In this document: piece by piece, positions 2,469-14,960 of the stretch | Layout: each line of letters opens with the position of its first letter | How positions within the stretch are numbered: position 1 is the first letter of the stretch | DNA from: Bryobacterales bacterium | GTDB taxonomy: Bacteria; Acidobacteriota; Terriglobia; Bryobacterales; Bryobacteraceae | Assembly (NCBI GenBank): GCA_003167495.1 | Contig: PMSX01000187.1 | Location: 1 to 64,000 of the forward strand | Length of the DNA: 64,000 nt | Reading direction: 5' to 3' | Notes under the pieces: generated by a model | Told to the model about the DNA's origin: nothing | Database searches by the model: none | The model's input: the letters and a program-made list of their open reading frames with translations, nothing else | Position numbers and translations under genes: made by a program

Positions 2469-4553
2469 TCAATGAGCAATCACCAGCAGAGTATCAGCCC
2501 GGCGGAGCGTGCATTCGAGAGCGGTCTTCAAATTCTCGGGGTCGAGGGCGGCAAAGCTTTCATCGAGAATCACGAGCGGGGCTTGTTGCAACAATGCGCG
2601 CGCAATGTAGACGCGGCTCTTCTCACCGTGCGAGAGCTGCCAGCCACCTTCGCCGACCGTTTGCAAAAGTCCACTGGGCATTCGATCGAGAACGCTACCC
2701 AATCCCAGATCACGGCACAAACACTCCGCCTCCTCCAGGTCCGCTCCCGTTGCAGGCCAGCTACGGCCCATTAGGAGATTGAATGCCAGCGTTTCGGCCA
2801 AGATGTGATTCTCATGGAATTGCGGTGCCGCCGCCACCATGCGCCGCCAGTTGGCTGTGCCGACGGTGTGCCTGTCTAGACCGTTGATGAGCAACAAACC
2901 CGATTCGGGCTCGCGCAAGCCAGCGAGCAGTGAGGCAAAAGTGGTTTTGCCGCCGCCAGAGGGTCCTTCTAACAAGATTCGATCGCCATTACGAATCGTG
3001 ATGTTGCATTCATGCAAAGCCGCTGTTCCAGTACTTCGGTAGCGAAACGTCAGGTGGTCCGCTTCTATCAGTTTTTGGCCGGCTCGAGGAGCGCCGATGC
3101 TCGGAGCATCGCCTCCAACTTCGGCCCGGCCGGCAGCATCGAACAAGGGCTTGATGCGTCGCCACGCCGCCCAGCCTGCGGCGATATCCACGAAAGATCC
3201 TGCTAGCTTACGGAAAGCGCCATAAGCCAGCAGAATGCCTCCTAACAGAACAGCCGACTGTGCACTCAAGGTTCGCCCCGCAACAATGGATGGCGCAAGG
3301 CAAGAGAGGCCGGTGAGCAGCCAGCCGCGCGGAATCGCTCCCACCAGCCAGCATCCTGCCCGGTCCAAACCGTGAGAGACTTCGAGATAGCCGTCGAGTG
3401 CCCTGTCTTCGTCACGGTGCCATTCTTCACAATTTTGCTGGACCAGGCGGGTTCGATGTCCCACCATGCTTTCCACCAGGTCCTGCGTCATGTCCATCCG
3501 CACTCCGGTCGCAGCGGCGTAACGCCGCATGAACTGCCAGCCAGCCAGGACGGCTAATCCGCACCAGCCAGCGAGCACCAGAGCGAAACGGCCCAGCAGG
3601 AAGATTGCCATGAGCAGCTCGATGATTGCCAGCAAGCCGGCAATTCCTCCGCTCACCGAAAGAGCTTCGATCGACTCAGCTTCCAAGGCCTGCCCCAAAA
3701 AGCCTCCTATCCCCTGGTGGCGGATTTCTTCAGACGACAATTTCAGGATTCCCGATAACAGCCGGCGTTTGAGCCACCCGCCCAGCCCAATCGCGAATAG
3801 GCCCTGCCACCAGGTTGTGGCCAACTGGAACGGAATGAGCGTGAGCAGTAATAAGACCCATGCCAGCAGCCATCCGCGGTCCATACGGCCCGAAAATGAG
3901 AGGCTTCCCAGAACCGCCCACGAGGCGAGCCACAGTAGATACTGTCCGATATGGGCGAAGATCAGACCGCCGGCATTCTGAATAGCGCCGGCCTCCCTAA
4001 GCAACCGAAAAGTCCCCTTGCCGATTTGGCTACGGAAGATCCAGCAATGGTCAATGCGTTTGCCGGTTGCTTGTTCGTCCAGCACAAGATCGAGAGTGCG
4101 CCGCTGCTTCGCGAGCGGAAGCCCGGCCTCTGTCAGAGCGCGCGCCAGTTCCGCACGTGAGGCTCGCTCACCAGGCTCTCGAATCGCCGCCGCAAGGTCA
4201 CGCGTGGAAACCTGCCGGACTTGCAGACTAGGCGTCAGCACCGAAAGTTTCTTTCCGTGGCGCGCGCAGATCGCTAGATAGGCATTTTCAGTCAATTGGA
4301 GCAAAGCCGGGTAGGCGCCCGCCAAGGCATGCTCCAAGCCTCGGAATGGCATGTCCAGCACGCTGGCATCGCAGCCGAGGCGCCCTGCCGCCCAGGGAAT
4401 CCAGTTTTTAAGCTCGCCGGCGCTCTGACAAACGGCCGGATTGACAAGCTCGCCGTCTGTTCTTCCCAGCCTCGCCCTCCGCATCAATGCCGTCAGTGCG
4501 TCGCCAATTCGCGAAGCCGGCCAACTCAGCGCGACAAAATCCAGCGTCTCCAC
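2469..4553 (-). CDS. ABC exporter, permease-ATPase fusion without peptidase domain
   Basis: Third and last gene of the export operon. The 694-residue protein has an N-terminal region of about 190 residues without a peptidase motif, a membrane domain of about six helices (roughly residues 195-450), and a nucleotide-binding domain. That domain has Walker A GPSGGGKTT, signature LSHGEKSR and Walker B LVILDES. The architecture and position match the second ABC protein of C39/NHLM-type bacteriocin export systems, where it partners the peptidase-ABC protein. The GTG start overlaps the upstream stop by one base (TAGTG), which implies translational coupling. The C terminus ends right after the H-loop (LLVIAH), slightly early for an ABC domain. 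The N-terminal domain may bind the cargo, but its function is unknown. Confidence 0.85.
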   Translation of the reverse strand: METLDFVALSWPASRIGDALTALMRRARLGRTDGELVNPAVCQSAGELKNWIPWAAGRLGCDASVLDMPFRGLEHALAGAYPALLQLTENAYLAICARHGKKLSVLTPSLQVRQVSTRDLAAAIREPGERASRAELARALTEAGLPLAKQRRTLDLVLDEQATGKRIDHCWIFRSQIGKGTFRLLREAGAIQNAGGLIFAHIGQYLLWLASWAVLGSLSFSGRMDRGWLLAWVLLLLTLIPFQLATTWWQGLFAIGLGGWLKRRLLSGILKLSSEEIRHQGIGGFLGQALEAESIEALSVSGGIAGLLAIIELLMAIFLLGRFALVLAGWCGLAVLAGWQFMRRYAAATGVRMDMTQDLVESMVGHRTRLVQQNCEEWHRDEDRALDGYLEVSHGLDRAGCWLVGAIPRGWLLTGLSCLAPSIVAGRTLSAQSAVLLGGILLAYGAFRKLAGSFVDIAAGWAAWRRIKPLFDAAGRAEVGGDAPSIGAPRAGQKLIEADHLTFRYRSTGTAALHECNITIRNGDRILLEGPSGGGKTTFASLLAGLREPESGLLLINGLDRHTVGTANWRRMVAAAPQFHENHILAETLAFNLLMGRSWPATGADLEEAECLCRDLGLGSVLDRMPSGLLQTVGEGGWQLSHGEKSRVYIARALLQQAPLVILDESFAALDPENLKTALECTLRRADTLLVIAH

Positions 4554-7186
4554 TACGCTACCTCGCTCGCGATCCGGCTCTCACTCACGGCTCTGGGCCG
4601 TTCTTCCACAATCTGGCCGGACTGAATGCGGAGCCTGCGCCAGGCGTTTCCCTGCCAGAGAGCCATGCGGGTTTGCTCCTCGGCGGCCTGCAGTTGCATG
4701 TAGCGAGACGCCGGCTGCTCGGCTAGTTCCCTGGGCTTACCTTGCTCGACGATGCAGCCGTTTTCCACGACAACAACCCAATCGAACGCGTGTGTTTCCG
4801 CCAGATCGTGAGTGATGCACAGCATAGTTGCGCCGCGCCACCATTGGCGGGCACGCGCCAACAATTCGCGCCGCCGCTCGCGATCCAAGCCGCGAAAAGG
4901 CTCGTCGAGAATGACCAGTTGCGCGTCCTGCCGAAGTAAGGCCCGGCCGAATCGCGCGCGCTGGCCTTCGCCACCAGAAATCAAGCCTCCGCCTTCGCCG
5001 AGTTTCGTCTGCAAACCTTGAGGTAATGCTTCGACCACATTACGCAACAGGGCAGCATCCATCGCTTCTCCCACTTGGCGGCCTTCCACTGCCGTACCGT
5101 AGTTGAGATTCGCAAATAGCGAGCGATTCCAAAGCTGCACGGCCGGATCAACCCATGCAGTACACAAGCGCAGCCGCTTACAGTCCAGCGAGGCACCATT
5201 GATGAGGATTTCGCCGTTGGCCGGCTTCAGCCAGCCGAGGAGCATGCCAACCAAGCTCGACTTACCAGCGCCCGACGGGCCGATGATCGCCACCTGGCTT
5301 CCCGCCTCGATCTCCAAGGTGATTTCGTTGAGAATCGCGTGGCCGGACGCTTCGGCTGAGACGTTACGGAAGCTAATGGCAGGCGGCGCGTCCAGTGGGG
5401 CAGTCTGGTCTTCGTTATCCGACCCTGCGTTTTCGTCAGGCGTTCCCAAGGGATCAAGCAGACGCAAGGTAAGATTCCGGTATCCAGGATACTGCCGCGC
5501 CAGTGCACAGATTTCCTGTCCCAGCACCGGCAGGCTTAAGGCCCAGTAAGCGACCAAGAGTATCTGGCCCGCGGCGATTTCATGCCGTGGCCGGATCAGG
5601 AGCATTATCACCAGACCAAAGGTGAGAATGACTTGCAGAGCTTCCACGCTGACAATGGCCCGTTGCAATCGCAAAGCGGCCTCCGCCCATTCGCCCAGCA
5701 GGTTCTCCTGTTCCTGGCGAACGGTCCGTTCCGCGCCATGGGCACGAATCGCTAACAGTCCGAGCATTGCATCAAGATAGAAACGCGTTAAGCCGGCCGA
5801 ATGGGTTCGCGCGCGCAAATCACGCTCCACCAGTAAAGATCGCGCCCCAAAAAGGGGCAGCAGGGCGGCGGCTACGGCCGGCAACATAAACGGCGCGGCG
5901 CTCGGTTCCAGCCACAGGATGCCAACACAGGTTGCAACAAACTGGAGGAGGGCGGAGAGCAACTGCTGGGCCAGGAAAGGCAAGTACCGCAAGCGATGGG
6001 TGGCATGACTGCGCTCAGCCATGTCTGAAGTGAGGCGGCTCCGGAAATAGCGGTCACCCAACCTCGGGATCTTCTCTAGGAAGAGCACGCGCAAACGAAT
6101 CTCCAATTGCCGGCCGAGGCGCACTCCCGTGGCGATGGCCGGCAATTCCAACAGCAACAGCACAAAGCAGCACAGTAAGACAGCGGCTACGGCGGCCATG
6201 CGTTGCCAACCAAGAGTCAACTCGGCGTTGATATCCAGCAGACCGCGAAAAAGCAATGCTTCGAGCAATGTGCCGCCTGCTGCTACCGCTAATGCGATGC
6301 TCAACAGCGCGACACTTCCGGCTCCGCTCCGCCAGAGCGCGCGTGCCAGTTCCCGCCCTGGAGTGGCCGAGCGCTCTTCCACCGCCGCCGCGAGTTCTCG
6401 ACTCAGCCCTTCAGCCGCTGCTTCGGTGCGCTTTTGCTTGAAGCGAACAAGCACAGCTCCCCGCATCAAGACCTGATCGTCCGCTTCAGGTGTAACCGAC
6501 CAGCAATGCCGCGGGATGAGAGCGGGATTGGCGCACAGTCTCTGTACTAGGTTCCCCATCTGCCGGGTCCCTCGCAATCCACTAGCTTCGGCGATGGATG
6601 TCCCTAGTCTCGTGGCGGCGTCGAGAGCGGCTAGCCCGTGCCAGCCTGGCTGATGCATGGCCTCATCTGTCAACTGCTTTCCCTGCCGGTCTTCAATTCC
6701 GAGCTTGCCCAGGCGAGTCTTGAGAGCAAGTTGAAAATCGTCCGAGGCCGCGAACTCGCGCCAATCCGCAGCGCCGACCGGCATCGCATGGCAATACACT
6801 TCGCTGGCGAATTGCGCCCAAGAAACCCAACGCCTTCCCACCGCCGGATCCATGACCTGCAGCAGCTTTCCAAACCTTCGCCACACCACGACAAAATGGG
6901 TCAGCCCACTGGGCAGCACCACAACAACGATCGCGGGTAGAGCCTTCGCCTCCGGCAGCGGCAAATGGTCTACCGGCAACATGATCTGTTCCGCTTCCAA
7001 GCCCAACTGATTCGCCACGGTTTCCATGGTGTCGATGGAGGTACCGTCCAGCCCCGTCTGGCACGCATCGCGCAAGCGCCCGTAGCTGACGCGCGTACCA
7101 AAGCCCTCTAAGACGCATTTGAGTACAGCGGGCCCGCAATCCATGCCGGAAGTTTGAACAACTTCGGGCGCCAGCAACTTCCTCAA
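4553..7186 (-). CDS. C39 peptidase/ABC exporter (bacteriocin-type leader-cleaving transporter)
   Basis: An 877-residue peptidase-containing ABC transporter, which removes a leader peptide and exports the remainder across the inner membrane. The C39 papain-like domain fills residues 1-140: Gln11, catalytic Cys17 (SGMDCGPA), His97 (GLTHFVVVW) and Asp113. A non-conserved linker, then the membrane domain (about residues 290-570), then the ATPase with GPSGAGKSS, ISGGEGQR and LVILDEP follow. The TTG start overlaps the adaptor gene's stop by four bases. The peptidase triad is intact, so a peptide substrate with a small-residue cleavage site is expected. The only peptide genes in reach are the two micro-ORFs upstream of the operon. 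Confidence 0.92.
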   Translation of the reverse strand: MRKLLAPEVVQTSGMDCGPAVLKCVLEGFGTRVSYGRLRDACQTGLDGTSIDTMETVANQLGLEAEQIMLPVDHLPLPEAKALPAIVVVVLPSGLTHFVVVWRRFGKLLQVMDPAVGRRWVSWAQFASEVYCHAMPVGAADWREFAASDDFQLALKTRLGKLGIEDRQGKQLTDEAMHQPGWHGLAALDAATRLGTSIAEASGLRGTRQMGNLVQRLCANPALIPRHCWSVTPEADDQVLMRGAVLVRFKQKRTEAAAEGLSRELAAAVEERSATPGRELARALWRSGAGSVALLSIALAVAAGGTLLEALLFRGLLDINAELTLGWQRMAAVAAVLLCCFVLLLLELPAIATGVRLGRQLEIRLRVLFLEKIPRLGDRYFRSRLTSDMAERSHATHRLRYLPFLAQQLLSALLQFVATCVGILWLEPSAAPFMLPAVAAALLPLFGARSLLVERDLRARTHSAGLTRFYLDAMLGLLAIRAHGAERTVRQEQENLLGEWAEAALRLQRAIVSVEALQVILTFGLVIMLLIRPRHEIAAGQILLVAYWALSLPVLGQEICALARQYPGYRNLTLRLLDPLGTPDENAGSDNEDQTAPLDAPPAISFRNVSAEASGHAILNEITLEIEAGSQVAIIGPSGAGKSSLVGMLLGWLKPANGEILINGASLDCKRLRLCTAWVDPAVQLWNRSLFANLNYGTAVEGRQVGEAMDAALLRNVVEALPQGLQTKLGEGGGLISGGEGQRARFGRALLRQDAQLVILDEPFRGLDRERRRELLARARQWWRGATMLCITHDLAETHAFDWVVVVENGCIVEQGKPRELAEQPASRYMQLQAAEEQTRMALWQGNAWRRLRIQSGQIVEERPRAVSESRIASEVA

Positions 7187-8337
7187 TGCGCACCCATTAC
7201 CTTACCCGCCAACCTGAGCAACAGTAGTAGCGGCGATGTTTGGCTTACTTCAACCTCCACTGAGCCGGGCATTCCGTGCTGAAAGGGAATCCGCGAACGC
7301 GGAGCCGGCTCGATCGCCAACTCCACTCGGACTTTGTTATCGCGAATCTCGCCCGCCACTTCCGTAACTTGGGCTTTGAGCGTGCCGAATTGCGCCCAGG
7401 GAAAACCTTGCAGCCGGATAACGGCGTTTTGTCCAGGATGTATCTTTCCGAAGGCTGCCGACGGTTCGAACTCAGCGACTAACTGCAGCTTGCTATCCGG
7501 TATGATTACCCCAAGTTGCTGGCCTTCCGCGATATGAGCACCAGGACGAAGCGGCGTACACTCGCTCAATCTCCCGAAAACCGCGGCGCGAATACTCCGC
7601 TTCCGTACTTCGAATTCCAAGCGCTTGCAGTTCGCCGATGAGGCCACTGCCTCAGCTTCCACTTTGGTTATTTCTTCCTGCAATTGCTTTAGCCGCACAT
7701 CGCGATCACGGTTGCGAACCTGCAGTTCGGGCTGAAGGCGCGCTACGGCAACTTGCATGCTGTCAGCCGCCGCTCTCCTGCTTGCGGCATCAGCACCGGC
7801 ACGTTCGGCGTCCGCCGTCGAAATAAGTCCCTCGGCGCGTAAGCGATCCGCACGCGCGGCCTCCTGCTCCGCCTGTCTCGCTTGGGTAAGCGCCTGCCGG
7901 TACTGGGCCTGGGCGCCGTCGGTCGACAAGGTGAGCACGGTCCGCTCAGACGCGCGTCCCTCCTCTTCCGAGCGTATCTGCGATCTTAATGCCGCCAGCT
8001 CCGGATCGAGCGATGCTAAATGAGCGCGTTCCTGTGCGACGCTGAGTTGTTCGTCATTGCTATCGAGTTCGACTAAAATATCGCCTGGATGCACTTCTCT
8101 ACCGAGTATGAGTTCGGAACCGGTGAGCCGTCCGCTCGCGTTCGCTTGTACGGGATAAGCCGCCCCAGCCACTTCAAGCCGCGCCACATCGGACACTTCA
8201 TATTGCGTTAGCCGAGCGGTAATCCCCCAAGTAAGCCACGCGCCCATGAGTAATATCGCTGCTCCGATCGCGGTGATAGAGCGAAGCCCTCTGTCGAGGC
8301 GCAGCGATTGATTTACATGCTGAAAGCTACCGGGCAT
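7183..8337 (-). CDS. HlyD-family membrane-fusion/periplasmic adaptor protein
   Basis: First large gene of the export operon. The 384-residue protein has one N-terminal membrane helix (about residues 20-40), a lipoyl-like half domain, a long Ala/Glu/Arg-rich coiled-coil hairpin (roughly residues 95-245), a second half-lipoyl motif and a beta-barrel domain ending in SVEVEVSQTSP. Such adaptors link inner-membrane ABC exporters to the outer membrane or carry cargo across the periplasm. The ATG start is 157 bases downstream of a conserved RNA hairpin and about 230 bases downstream of micro-ORF A. A degraded copy of part of its coiled coil lies at 8870-9027. No outer-membrane TolC partner is in the window. 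Confidence 0.88.
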   Translation of the reverse strand: MPGSFQHVNQSLRLDRGLRSITAIGAAILLMGAWLTWGITARLTQYEVSDVARLEVAGAAYPVQANASGRLTGSELILGREVHPGDILVELDSNDEQLSVAQERAHLASLDPELAALRSQIRSEEEGRASERTVLTLSTDGAQAQYRQALTQARQAEQEAARADRLRAEGLISTADAERAGADAASRRAAADSMQVAVARLQPELQVRNRDRDVRLKQLQEEITKVEAEAVASSANCKRLEFEVRKRSIRAAVFGRLSECTPLRPGAHIAEGQQLGVIIPDSKLQLVAEFEPSAAFGKIHPGQNAVIRLQGFPWAQFGTLKAQVTEVAGEIRDNKVRVELAIEPAPRSRIPFQHGMPGSVEVEVSQTSPLLLLLRLAGKVMGAH

Positions 8338-8493
8338 TTGACGCTAAATACAACTGTCGGCGCAAATGCTTTATAAGGTGAGACAGTCGCGTGGAATAAT
8401 TACCTAATGTTCAGGCGGATACAACCGATAACTACTTTGGCGGGCTAAAGCGAACCTAAAGGTTCAGATCCGCTTGATCTTTGACAATCAGCA

Positions 8494-8533
8494 GTGACCG
8501 AAGTTTATGTGGATATACATAAACTTCGATCAC
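8494..8533 (-). promoter_or_regulatory. Conserved RNA hairpin A between micro-ORF A and the adaptor gene
   Basis: Inverted repeat with 17-bp arms (plus strand GTGACCGAAGTTTATGT and ACATAAACTTCGATCAC) around a 6-nt loop. The only imperfection is A-C in plus-strand RNA but G-U in minus-strand RNA, so the helix is complete only in the transcript that carries the micro-ORF and the export genes. No U-run follows, so it is not a standard intrinsic terminator. A pause, processing, stability or attenuation element is more likely. Confidence 0.75.
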
Positions 8534-8569
8534 CACATAGTTGGTGGCAATATGTGCCACTCCCTGCAA

Positions 8570-8620
8570 CTAAACTCCCCAATTGGTGTTACCGGCGTTT
8601 ACTTTGCTCTTAACTTTCAT
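8570..8620 (-). CDS. Micro-ORF A: 16-residue peptide MKVKSKVNAGNTNWGV
   Basis: A 16-codon ORF with an ATG start and TAG stop. It is preceded by a consensus Shine-Dalgarno (AAAGGAG, 8627-8633) six bases before ATG. The product MKVKSKVNAGNTNWGV is basic at the N terminus. It shares MKVKSKVNAG with micro-ORF B; the three nucleotide differences in these ten codons are all synonymous, which indicates selection on the peptide. The last six residues differ from B except for Trp-Gly. It sits upstream of a C39 peptidase exporter, so it could be an ultra-short exported peptide precursor, with cleavage possibly after Ala-Gly. Canonical C39 sites have Gly at -2, so that site would be unusual. Alternatively it is a regulatory leader peptide for hlyD. 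I do not recognise a named family. Confidence 0.7.
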   Translation of the reverse strand: MKVKSKVNAGNTNWGV

Positions 8621-8744
8621 GGGTTTCTCCTTTCTAGATCGTGATCTTGTTCGGCAGGATCTCGATGTGTTCTGTTGTTTGCGTGATCTCAGAGTAACAA
8701 CGTAGACGGCCAAGCCGCAATACACTTAGGGGGCAGTAAGCGAC
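8604..8744 (-). repeat. Leader block A of the tandem duplication (141 bp)
   Basis: Aligns without gaps to 9321-9461 with one mismatch in 141 bp. It spans the first five codons of the micro-ORF, the Shine-Dalgarno and about 124 bp further upstream, which presumably holds the promoter and 5' UTR. I see no convincing -35/-10 pair. Sequence after the start codon region diverges much more (roughly 75-80% identity by eye), so the block is unusually well preserved. Confidence 0.9.
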
Positions 8745-8869
8745 CAAGAAGTGCCTGAGGACGACGTCGCCATGATTAGCCAGCAGTAGGGGCCAACTGT
8801 TATAGCCGCCGCAGCTCTATTCGGGTCTAGGCGTTGCCGTAAGTAGGAGAGCATTCGATACCGGGAGTG

Positions 8870-9027
8870 GGCTGGTAACTAGGCGATTTTGCTCGGGATT
8901 AGCCAGACAATTGCGATCACGCTCGCGAACGTGCGGTGGGAGCTGAAGGAGCGCTAAGGCAACTTGCAAGCTGTCAGCCGTTATCTGTTGCTTGCGGCAG
9001 TGATGCCGGCACGTCCGGCGCCAGCTG
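8870..9027 (-). pseudogene. Remnant of a second hlyD copy
   Basis: The core, 8901-9027, aligns without gaps to 7690-7815 of the intact adaptor gene at roughly 78% identity by eye; the match fades towards 8870. In the minus frame it still reads ADSLQVALALLQ where the intact gene reads ADSMQVAVARLQ, followed by VRERDRN against VRNRDRD. It has no start, no membrane anchor and no barrel. It lies between micro-ORF B and micro-ORF A, exactly where a second adaptor gene should be if the whole locus was once duplicated in tandem. Confidence 0.85.
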
Positions 9028-9204
9028 ATTTGATTTGATCCAAAACACAACTGTCGACAGGAGCGCTTTATAAGGTGAGGGAGTTAGCTGGAAAAAGGCG
9101 GGAATAATTAGCTAATGTTCAGACCGAAGCGGCCGATAACTACTCTGGCGGGCAAAAAAGCTGAATCTAAAGGTTCGGATCCGCTTGATCTTTGACAATT
9201 CGCA

Positions 9205-9244
9205 GTGATCAAAGTTTACGTGGATATACATAAACTTCGATCAC
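9205..9244 (-). promoter_or_regulatory. Conserved RNA hairpin B downstream of micro-ORF B
   Basis: Counterpart of hairpin A with the same GGATAT loop and 17-nt arms. Two substitutions in one arm relative to a perfect helix give A-C mismatches in plus-strand RNA but U-G and G-U wobble pairs in minus-strand RNA. With hairpin A, three substitutions at three different positions all preserve pairing only on the minus strand. It has the same position relative to its micro-ORF as hairpin A. Confidence 0.75.
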
Positions 9245-9289
9245 TACAGAGTTGGTGGCAATATATGTCACGGCCTACAACTCCTAAAA

Positions 9290-9337
9290 CTAGGATCCCC
9301 AAACCACGCCAGCGTTTACCTTGCTCTTAACTTTCAT
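9290..9337 (-). CDS. Micro-ORF B: 15-residue peptide MKVKSKVNAGVVWGS
   Basis: A 15-codon ORF with ATG start, TAG stop and the same AAAGGAG Shine-Dalgarno (9344-9350) at six-base spacing as micro-ORF A. The product is MKVKSKVNAGVVWGS. Residues 1-10 are identical to micro-ORF A despite synonymous changes at Lys6, Ala9 and Gly10. The tail VVWGS differs in length and sequence but keeps Trp-Gly. The adaptor gene that should follow is a remnant, so this copy relies on the intact export operon about 1 kb downstream, if it is used at all. Conserved head plus variable tail is the pattern of leader/core peptide precursors, here at extreme shortness. Confidence 0.68.
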   Translation of the reverse strand: MKVKSKVNAGVVWGS

Positions 9338-9461
9338 GGGTTTCTCCTTTCTAGATCGTGATCTTGTTCGGCAGGATCTCGATGTGTTCTGTTGTTTGTG
9401 TGATCTCAGAGTAACAACGTAGACGGCCAAGCCGCAATACACTTAGGGGGCAGTAAGCGAC
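9321..9461 (-). repeat. Leader block B of the tandem duplication (141 bp)
   Basis: Partner of 8604-8744, differing at a single base. It carries the start of micro-ORF B, its ribosome-binding site and the shared upstream region. Beyond 9461 the similarity continues at lower level to about 9505, through a shared GACGTCGTC-containing stretch, and is then lost. Confidence 0.9.
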
Positions 9462-9707
9462 AAAGAAGTACCTCGGGACGACGTCGCCATCATTAGCCAG
9501 TACTGGACCAGCTGTAATAGCCGCGGCGGGTCTGGCTGATCGACAACGAACGCAGGCGACGCTTGCTGTCTGAAAAAAAATTGATGTCCGTACGTCTCTT
9601 CCATTAGGCTCTGAAAAGCCTCCTGGCGCCCCACTCCGATTCGAACATTTATGTCCCGCACTCGCGCACTGCCGCCGATTTCATTCAGAAGAGACTAAAC
9701 TAGAAAT

Positions 9708-14312: not shown

Positions 14313-14327
14313 CTTTTGGTTTCAGCT

Positions 14328-14960
14328 ATGAGCCGTTGTTTCATCAGTTACCGGCACGTTGCACCCGATCGCGATCTGGCGCATGCCTTGGGCGCCTCGC
14401 TCACCAGAGGCGGCCACACCGTGTTCCTCGATACCCAACTCGAAGTAGGAACCAGATGGGTGGATGAAATCGAACGCGAAATCAAGGCGGCTGACTTCTT
14501 CGCCGTTTTGTTGTCCGAACACTCCATACGAAGCGATATGGTGCGGGCGGAAGTTGCCATCGCGCACCGGCGTTCGGCTGAAGCAAAGCTTTGTATCTTT
14601 CCAGTTCGCGTCGGTTATTCGGCGGATCTGCCTTATGACTTAGCAGCCTACCTTGACCCGTTCCAGCACAGTTGCTGGGATGCGGACGAACCCTTTGACC
14701 GCATCTGTTCTGAAATCGAAACAGCTATCAACCATCGTGCCGGCCGCCAGACCGCCTTGCCCTGCGTTCATTTTGAGCGCGAAAGTTTAGATCGCGTGAC
14801 GCAGGAATTGGCTGTCTTCGTCGGCCCGGCAGCCCGCATACTGGTAAGTCGCGCCGCCAAAAAAGCACAAACCTGGAAGCAACTCTACGATACCCTGGCC
14901 ACCGAGGTGCCGGCAGGAGAAGAGCGCAAAAATTTCCTGGCGAAACGCCCGCTACGCTGA
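14328..14960 (+). CDS. TIR-domain protein with a C-terminal helical domain
   Basis: The TIR domain spans about residues 1-130: MSRCFISYRH opens the first strand, TVFLDTQLEVG is the BB-loop region, and SEHSIRSDMVRAEVAIA holds the position of the catalytic glutamate (Glu75) of NAD-cleaving TIR domains. The C-terminal 60 residues (VGPAARILVSRAAKKAQTW, then LYDTLA and RKNFL) resemble a small helical module I recall at the C-terminal ends of some bacterial Ser/Thr kinases and cyclases; that link is from memory. I chose ATG 14328 over TTG 14316 because it sits right at the domain start. The gene end overlaps the opposing sensor gene by 9 bp. NAD hydrolase, defence or scaffold roles are all possible. 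Confidence 0.8.
   Translation: MSRCFISYRHVAPDRDLAHALGASLTRGGHTVFLDTQLEVGTRWVDEIEREIKAADFFAVLLSEHSIRSDMVRAEVAIAHRRSAEAKLCIFPVRVGYSADLPYDLAAYLDPFQHSCWDADEPFDRICSEIETAINHRAGRQTALPCVHFERESLDRVTQELAVFVGPAARILVSRAAKKAQTWKQLYDTLATEVPAGEERKNFLAKRPLR

Follow-up and report, generated by a model that had tools for sequence, protein, structure and literature searches.

Ultra-short open reading frames beside a C39 peptidase exporter in Bryobacteraceae as candidate leader/core peptide precursors

The DNA analysed here, referred to as the window, is a stretch of 64,000 nucleotides (nt) of contig PMSX01000187.1 from the Bryobacterales bacterium assembly GCA_003167495.1 (family Bryobacteraceae), a draft genome of 9.39 Mb in 396 contigs, which is 93.9% complete with 7.6% contamination. 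On the minus strand of the window, two open reading frames (ORFs) of 15 and 16 codons, ORF a and ORF b, are followed in this order by hlyD, the gene for a C39 peptidase-ATP-binding cassette (ABC) exporter and the gene for a second ABC protein. As described in the first-pass annotation of this DNA, each of the two ORFs carries a Shine-Dalgarno sequence, AAAGGAG, six bases 5' of its ATG. The locus is composed of the following features:

9290..9337 (stop included), minus strand: ORF a, candidate ultra-short precursor MKVKSKVNAGVVWGS, from ORF reading
9344..9350, minus strand: Shine-Dalgarno sequence AAAGGAG of ORF a
9205..9244, minus strand: stem-loop 3' of ORF a, z score -7.4 over the surrounding 100 nt
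9033..9533, minus strand: copy a of a duplicated block (upstream region, ORF, stem-loop), 83% identity to copy b
8899..9025, minus strand: decayed hlyD remnant of 127 nt between the copies, 77% identity to 7689-7815 inside the intact hlyD
8336..8818, minus strand: copy b of the duplicated block, 83% identity to copy a
8570..8620 (stop included), minus strand: ORF b, candidate ultra-short precursor MKVKSKVNAGNTNWGV, from ORF reading
8627..8633, minus strand: Shine-Dalgarno sequence AAAGGAG of ORF b
8494..8533, minus strand: stem-loop between ORF b and hlyD, z score -6.4 over the surrounding 100 nt
7183..8337, minus strand: hlyD-type periplasmic adaptor, 384 amino acids (aa; Pfam PF13437; NCBIfam TIGR01843 and TIGR03794 below cut-off)
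4553..7186, minus strand: C39 peptidase-ABC exporter, 877 aa, with Q11, C17, H97 and D113 (Pfam PF03412, PF00005)
2469..4553, minus strand: second ABC exporter subunit, 694 aa, no Pfam peptidase match (Pfam PF00005)

A block containing the ORF and hlyD was duplicated in tandem, which gave rise to the ORF pair. One of the two hlyD copies has since decayed, while the ORF of 15 codons is still open and its tail is altered in the same style. Over the ten codons of their heads, ORF a and ORF b differ by three bases (AAG/AAA, GCT/GCC, GGC/GGT), and the observation of the first-pass annotation that all three differences are synonymous is correct; the chance that three of three random substitutions in 30 nt are synonymous is 0.005-0.016. 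The same annotation took this as selection on a peptide. However, the 130 nt 5' of the ORFs differ at just two positions between the copies and are thus even more alike than the heads, so that the window pair by itself is weak evidence for peptide selection. The decisive support for the claim comes from 13 ORFs of the same genus and from 42 short ORFs at 29 of 80 exporter loci, both of which are described below.

The genus comparison covered 17 genomes. A first head pattern, which did not demand Trp, gave nine matches in seven of these genomes, and the reversed pattern gave none. A looser search returned 67 places versus 27 in a reversed control; seven new places were read, which yielded three members, one decayed copy and three places left uncounted (in G004, G005 and G013). 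In G005, a head-like start, MKVQTNLKAG, lies within a longer ORF of 60 aa and was left out of the member count. The looser pattern together with reading of the loci thus defines a set of 13 intact genus ORFs of 15-20 aa, all preceded by AGGAG, with GTG as start codon in one and TTG in another. They share a 10-residue head of the form M-K-V/I/T-K-S/T-x-V/I/L-x-A-G (consensus MKVKSNVKAG), which is kept in all 13, and their tails differ: VVWGS, NTNWGV, KGLWGA, RTVWGA, RAVWGA, QSIWDS, QSIWAS, RTFWGP, RALWGA, RSHWAT, QCIWAS, ASNWGD and SSIWPTTALA. The tails, which had been described as variable, indeed diverge in sequence and length, but they are not free, as Trp occupies core position 4 (position 3 in VVWGS) in 13/13.

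Between species, DNA identity is 78% in the head, 54% in the tail, 27-36% in the upstream flanks and 29% in the downstream flank. The ratio of nonsynonymous to synonymous differences (pN/pS) is 0.24 for the head and 0.60 for the tail, in agreement with the previously proposed division into leader and core. Because the in-frame ratio is low, the head ratio exceeds one in the other two frames (1.59 and 1.32) and pairwise head differences are concentrated at third codon positions (0.118, 0.111 and 0.473 at positions 1, 2 and 3), the constraint acts at the level of the protein. The genus ORFs are thus genuine protein-coding genes, whose head is constant and whose core is partly constrained.

The ORFs are tightly associated with the exporter: the C39 gene is present in 8/17 genus genomes (E up to 1e-60), and an intact ORF is found in 9/17, including all eight. 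In the ninth genome, G002, hlyD lies at a contig end and the C39 gene was not found; ORF and exporter co-occur with p = 4e-5 if the hlyD gene of G002 is counted as exporter. Four of the 13 genus ORFs (G002:C69, G003:C1029, G014:C84 and G014:C374) lack neighbouring exporter genes in the stretches examined, two of which are short contigs, and for these orphan ORFs the exporter would therefore act in trans.

A second genus was found in a family sample of 150 genomes from 76 genera, in which a pattern demanding Trp at the usual place gave 12 matches in 8 genomes and 2 genera, the reversed pattern giving none; these matches are consequently biased towards Trp, although L047 had already been found without that condition. 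All four sampled genomes of this genus contain ORFs of 16 aa, six in total, with the cores IAVWGT (twice), NSSWGS, VVIWEP and AATWGT (twice). The exporter is present in all four as well, on a different contig from the ORF in three. In each genome (L157, L158, L159 and L160), the peptide gene or gene pair is divergent from a regulator gene with FHA, GAF, Sigma54_activat and Fis-type helix-turn-helix domains. A MacB-like permease gene comes next after the pair of peptide gene and activator in three of the four genomes. Five second-genus ORFs have a TGGC-N7-TTGC-like (-24/-12-like, sigma-54-type) box, which starts 59-70 nt 5' of the start codon and is perfect for G569a, G524 and G551b, has one mismatch for G467 and two for G551a; G569b is located after G569a and is served by the same box. 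At one mismatch or fewer, such boxes precede 5 of the 19 ORFs of both genera, all from the second genus and two sharing one site, compared to a mean of 0.6 and a maximum of 3 with shuffled upstream letters; at this threshold, no box was found upstream of the ORFs in the genus of the window.

To go beyond the family, 84,980 species genomes were scanned with an alignment of eight exporters, and the best 80 of 164 relatives were used. According to the sequence records, the relatives belong to Acidobacteriota, Chloroflexi, Pseudomonadota, Myxococcales, Planctomycetota, Nitrospira and others. HlyD is present at 62 of the 80 loci, a second ABC gene at 64 and both at 52, counts that are limited by contigs ending early. 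Four proteins in the HlyD position (L015:10346-10840, L158:3018-3437, L046:5453-5989 and L049:3421-3879) are unusually short, 139-178 aa versus 384 aa in the window, and possibly lack the long middle part. Two rules were used to search the 80 loci for short ORFs with the head box. Rule A, which required [KR][VIL][KR][STA]x[VIL]x[AG]G and a Shine-Dalgarno-like stretch and allowed an internal box, found 42 short box ORFs at 29 loci (0 or 1 in each of ten shuffles, 0 in reversed sequence). Rule B, which required the box at the ORF start, found 56 ORFs at 30 loci, 31 of them of at most 20 aa at 11 loci (0 or 1 in each of five shuffles); with multi-box precursors set aside, their cores have 6 to 51 residues. 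The two locus counts differ because an internal box is permitted by rule A and an N-terminal box is demanded by rule B. The first-pass annotation had proposed to look for numerous loci that share the head, vary in the tail and carry a Shine-Dalgarno sequence, and such loci were found in the genus, the second genus and the wider family. Its statement that Lys-rich precursors are not this short elsewhere does not hold, since they occur in Microbulbifer, Chloroflexi and Terriglobales.

The largest arrays are found in Microbulbifer. Microbulbifer rhizosphaerae (L073:66-4560, NZ_JACHWZ010000002.1) carries 23 box ORFs, each 17-22 aa long, of which 19 pass rule B, in an array that starts at the edge of the stretch examined. 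The array lies 5' of the exporter trio, with mostly PELxIxx or PELxVxx cores and many ORFs about 90 nt apart; a plasmid search with it gave no match. Microbulbifer elongatus (L091:11096-13887, NZ_JAIVKJ010000002.1) has 17 ORFs of 18 aa of the MQNQTDIHAGPDAQLEPL type 3' of the exporter trio; their leader is Lys-poor and otherwise of the same design, and just 2/17 pass rule B. Some longer precursors repeat head-core-head-core, with internal or multiple boxes. A 133-aa precursor with six VRVRSGVKAGG-core-NHNQ-like units (L111:4380, minus strand, Myxococcales 68-20) apparently combines several leaders and cores in one chain, and at L017:11840-13310 (genome G056; identical to locus L078), nine or more precursor ORFs of the KLKVKTQVKGGG...NHNE type stand in a row 5' of a relative of the window exporter. 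These precursors with NHNQ, NHNE or NHNA linkers (L042, L078, L095 and L111) share the [K/R]-V-[K/R]-[S/T]-x-V-[K/R]-[A/G]-G box and the exporter trio with the window, but have 27-133 aa, several with multiple boxes, versus 15-16 aa. Eight longer box precursors matched no Pfam or NCBIfam family, apart from one weak and unrelated NCBIfam match (E 0.56). In the literature searched, no occurrence of the box strings was found, and among the matches listed for such peptides and exporters, nothing was recognisable as this class.

The 100 nt 3' of the ORF fold into a stem-loop for all 19 ORFs of both genera; for 17 of them at most 2 of 200 shuffles are as stable, for the other two 10 and 14 of 200. 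The stem sequences vary between species, and some resemble intrinsic terminators, for instance at G002:C69, where a GC stem is followed by a T run. A search of the whole genome for 23 nt of the window stem, allowing up to three mismatches, returned only the two window sites. The stem-loop probably keeps the peptide message above the exporter message in abundance. A second stem is located at 8630-8670 of the window, with counterparts just 5' of the Shine-Dalgarno sequence at several genus loci and partly compensatory changes. Among 11 sequences, including the decayed copy, 70.5% of the cells are paired and six pairs are changed on both sides; RNAalifold gave no consensus structure for this stem of the genus loci, which is possibly an operator or an element of the 5' untranslated region. 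No Rfam family of non-coding RNA was matched (best match 15.2 bits versus a gathering score of 124), and a sigma-70 promoter scan of 8337-9700 was uninformative, with none found and 1.3 expected by chance. Elsewhere in the window, an ORF at 14316-14960 resembles a TIR-domain protein, as judged by eye.

From these comparisons, we consider it probable that the ORFs encode leader/core precursors, which would be cut after Ala-Gly and exported, with a product that may be a signal rather than a toxin. Each short ORF would be a free-standing gene for an ultra-short precursor, whose residues 1-10 (M-K-V-K-S-x-V-x-A-G) would act as a leader that docks in the C39 domain of the neighbouring exporter. The C39 domain would then cut MKVKSNVKAGRTVWGA after Gly10, a position that is suggested because the constant part ends there in every genus member: Ala-Gly closes it in 13/13 ORFs, just ahead of the point at which sequence and length diverge. 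The remaining core, of the form x-x-x-Trp followed mostly by Gly or Ala, has five and six residues in the window, six in most relatives and ten in one; it would cross the two ABC subunits and the HlyD adaptor and is assumed to exit the cell via a TolC-type channel. The exporters appear equipped for cleavage, as the active-site residues Gln, Cys, His and Asp (Q11, C17, H97 and D113) are present in 81/81 exporters, compared with the D-C/S/A-G motif as the anchor. In addition, all 13 genus leaders have a hydrophobic residue, Val, Ile or Leu, at position -4. A co-variation of C39 residue 52 with the charge of the leader was also considered and dropped, since Asn52 occurs with Lys/Arg-rich leaders too.

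For the Bryobacteraceae members, we favour an intercellular signal over a toxin as the product, although without strong confidence. A signal is suggested by the fixed-Trp core of mostly five or six residues and by the stand-alone gene beside a regulator in the second genus. Moreover, two of the four orphan genus ORFs adjoin Reg_prop sensors, one of which is a full histidine kinase, an observation made post hoc. A role of the Reg_prop sensor as receptor is kept as a hint only.

Several observations weigh against this explanation. Cleavage after Ala-Gly, export, the role of the stem-loop and the signal role are all inferred from sequence. The searches targeted the box itself, and the shuffles therefore control chance and not choice. 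The leader departs from published C39 leaders, for which the consensus is L-12, E-8 and L-7 (PMC6959990), with GG, GA or GS at the cleavage site: 13/13 genus ORFs have Ala-Gly in place of Gly-Gly, Gly-Ala or Gly-Ser, Lys at -7, Val, Ile or Thr at -8, and no position -12. In the PCAT1-substrate structure, the peptidase residues Ala55 and Ile59 contact the leader at Leu -7 and Leu -12 (PMC6959990). One of these two contacts is changed: Glu55, which aligns with PCAT1 Ile59, is present in 80/81 exporters, and Ile51, which aligns with PCAT1 Ala55, is still hydrophobic. A charged contact may thus take the place of the hydrophobic knot, at least partly, while Val -4 would still act as a specificity residue. 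LahT cleaved a synthetic substrate that had 13 leader residues; Lys was accepted at positions -8 and -5 and not accepted at -7 (PMC6363468). Because the leader described here has Lys at -7, the window-type exporter must differ from LahT.

The distribution of the ORFs is likewise uneven. The strict head pattern matches just 4 of 396 genomes from an even draw of the phylum, the window genome among them; the box ORFs of two of the others are longer (38 aa in G122, 35 aa in G297), and in G328 the regular expression found no box ORF. Exporter loci lacking the ORF, which the first-pass annotation had named as counterevidence, do exist: 50 of the 80 loci have no N-terminal box ORF in the stretch examined, and three of the four second-genus exporters have no adjacent ORF. 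The latter are read as action in trans, because the ORF is located elsewhere in the same genome. The ultra-short form is thus patchy, both among the phylum genomes and among the exporter loci. Within the genus, the stretch 5' of the C39 gene in G003 shows no head, and a fourteenth copy, G002:C129 (L140:1393-1443), directly 5' of hlyD, is decayed, with no usable start codon and with Gly at the expected Trp, an intact copy being present on another G002 contig. As to a signal, two of the four orphan genus ORFs are not beside Reg_prop sensors, and the Microbulbifer arrays of differing cores fit a cocktail better than a single signal.

Among the alternatives, the same export with an antimicrobial or other weapon as product survives best, although we regard it as rather unlikely. 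Bacteriocin export is the classical role of C39 exporters, and the 23 and 17 diversified cores of the Microbulbifer arrays would suit a weapon. However, no immunity or modification gene is apparent beside the ORFs at the loci inspected, as judged by eye and by Pfam on selected genes, the fixed-Trp cores of five or six residues are small for a bacteriocin, and in the second genus the peptide gene is a stand-alone gene that forms a pair with a regulator gene. Less probable still is export without cleavage or with a cut elsewhere, in which case the product would be the full-length cationic 15-16-mer or a fragment trimmed in another way. Such an outcome is consistent with Ala-Gly being absent from the published sites and with a leader without the -7 and -12 contacts, as given in the sources cited above. 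It is at odds with the constant part ending at Ala-Gly in all genus ORFs, with the box ending at [AG]-G across phyla, though this was a search condition there, and with the invariant C39 active site, which would be odd for an exporter that does not cut.

The first-pass annotation had named a leader peptide regulating hlyD as its main alternative. Here, translation of the 15-16 codons, perhaps with stalling at Trp, would control read-through into hlyD in cis; the position of the ORF 5' of hlyD with an intervening stem-loop, in the window and at most genus exporter loci, and the single conserved Trp codon would fit. Such an attenuator is nevertheless very improbable and was rejected because peptide genes also sit away from hlyD: besides the four genus orphans, none of the six second-genus ORFs is upstream of hlyD, and the exporter is on another contig in three of four genomes. 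Furthermore, the constraint on the head is N-terminal and at the amino-acid level, and the box is repeated inside longer precursors elsewhere. Finally, it is hardly credible that the ORFs occur by chance within a duplicated region that serves as non-coding RNA or in regulation, even though the upstream 130 nt are more alike than the head and the stem 5' of the Shine-Dalgarno sequence partly covaries in the genus, since between species the flanks are near random and the ORF is conserved in frame, and shuffled and reversed sequences give 0-1 ORFs; frame-specific constraint and shuffle controls likewise rule out chance or duplication alone.

Leader/core precursors cut after Ala-Gly, the preferred explanation, can be compared with several known systems. 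Like the double-glycine leaders of PCAT1/CtA, LahT and ComA, the proposed leader is short, N-terminal, ends with a small residue and Gly, and is encoded beside a C39-ABC exporter with the same active-site residues; position -4 is hydrophobic in both, mostly Val here and Val, Leu or Ile in LahT substrates. It differs in its length of 10 residues (13 suffice for LahT), Lys at -7, mostly Val at -8, Ala-Gly, and an exporter with Glu at the position of Ile59. Since the defining leader features are not present, the ORFs would encode C39-exported leader/core peptides outside the canonical double-glycine family. The models of the NHLP/NHLM system (TIGR03794, TIGR03796 and TIGR03797) stand for the same three components as in the window, namely adaptor, C39-ABC and second ABC protein, and the window proteins match them, but far below the curated cut-offs (49.6/156.2, 196/853.3 and 106.7/709.4 bits). 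NHLP/NHLM precursors carry a Nif11 or nitrile-hydratase-like leader, and window precursors of 15-16 aa with a 10-aa head have no space for such large leaders; two longer frames enclosing the window ORFs gave no NCBIfam match.

ComX of Bacillus is a short extracellular peptide, sometimes a hexapeptide, with an essential Trp, which is prenylated by ComQ. It thus resembles the proposed product as a small Trp-containing extracellular peptide, but its precursor is longer, and we know of no report of ComX as a C39 substrate. To our knowledge, PatS of heterocystous cyanobacteria has no KVKSxVKAG-like leader. PatS is a short peptide carrying an active pentapeptide (PMC7761841), and the C39 exporter HetC, whose substrate is unproven, was suggested to export it (PMC10986499), a likewise short peptide with a C39 exporter. 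According to PMC10986499, however, hetC has no adjoining membrane-fusion protein gene, unlike the C39 gene of the window. A conserved Microbulbifer cluster for a ribosomally synthesized and post-translationally modified peptide is described as making a copper-binding product (PMC12538549) and appears to differ from the box-ORF cluster.

In a wider sense, the ORFs may belong to a widespread unannotated class, a proposal that we put forward tentatively. The class would comprise precursors of 15-20 residues with a minimal, mostly Lys-rich leader of 10 residues (KVKSxVKAG), a divergent Glu-bearing C39 domain and a dedicated exporter trio in several phyla, and the Trp peptides of Bryobacteraceae, mostly hexapeptides, might be cell-to-cell signals, sigma-54-controlled in one genus. 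Genes of 15-20 codons usually fall below gene-calling limits and are skipped by annotation pipelines, and because the precursor genes are too short for gene calling, annotated genomes may fail to show a layer of exported peptides. If the proposal is true, members could be sought by a simple rule, namely head box, Shine-Dalgarno sequence and a stop codon after no more than about 20 codons, applied to genomes that carry one exporter family, and the two Microbulbifer genomes, which are from named strains with arrays of 17-23 ORFs, make the idea testable. The C39 leader code would then be unlike the published one, and Gram-negative bacteria would have a candidate system that works with very short extracellular peptides.

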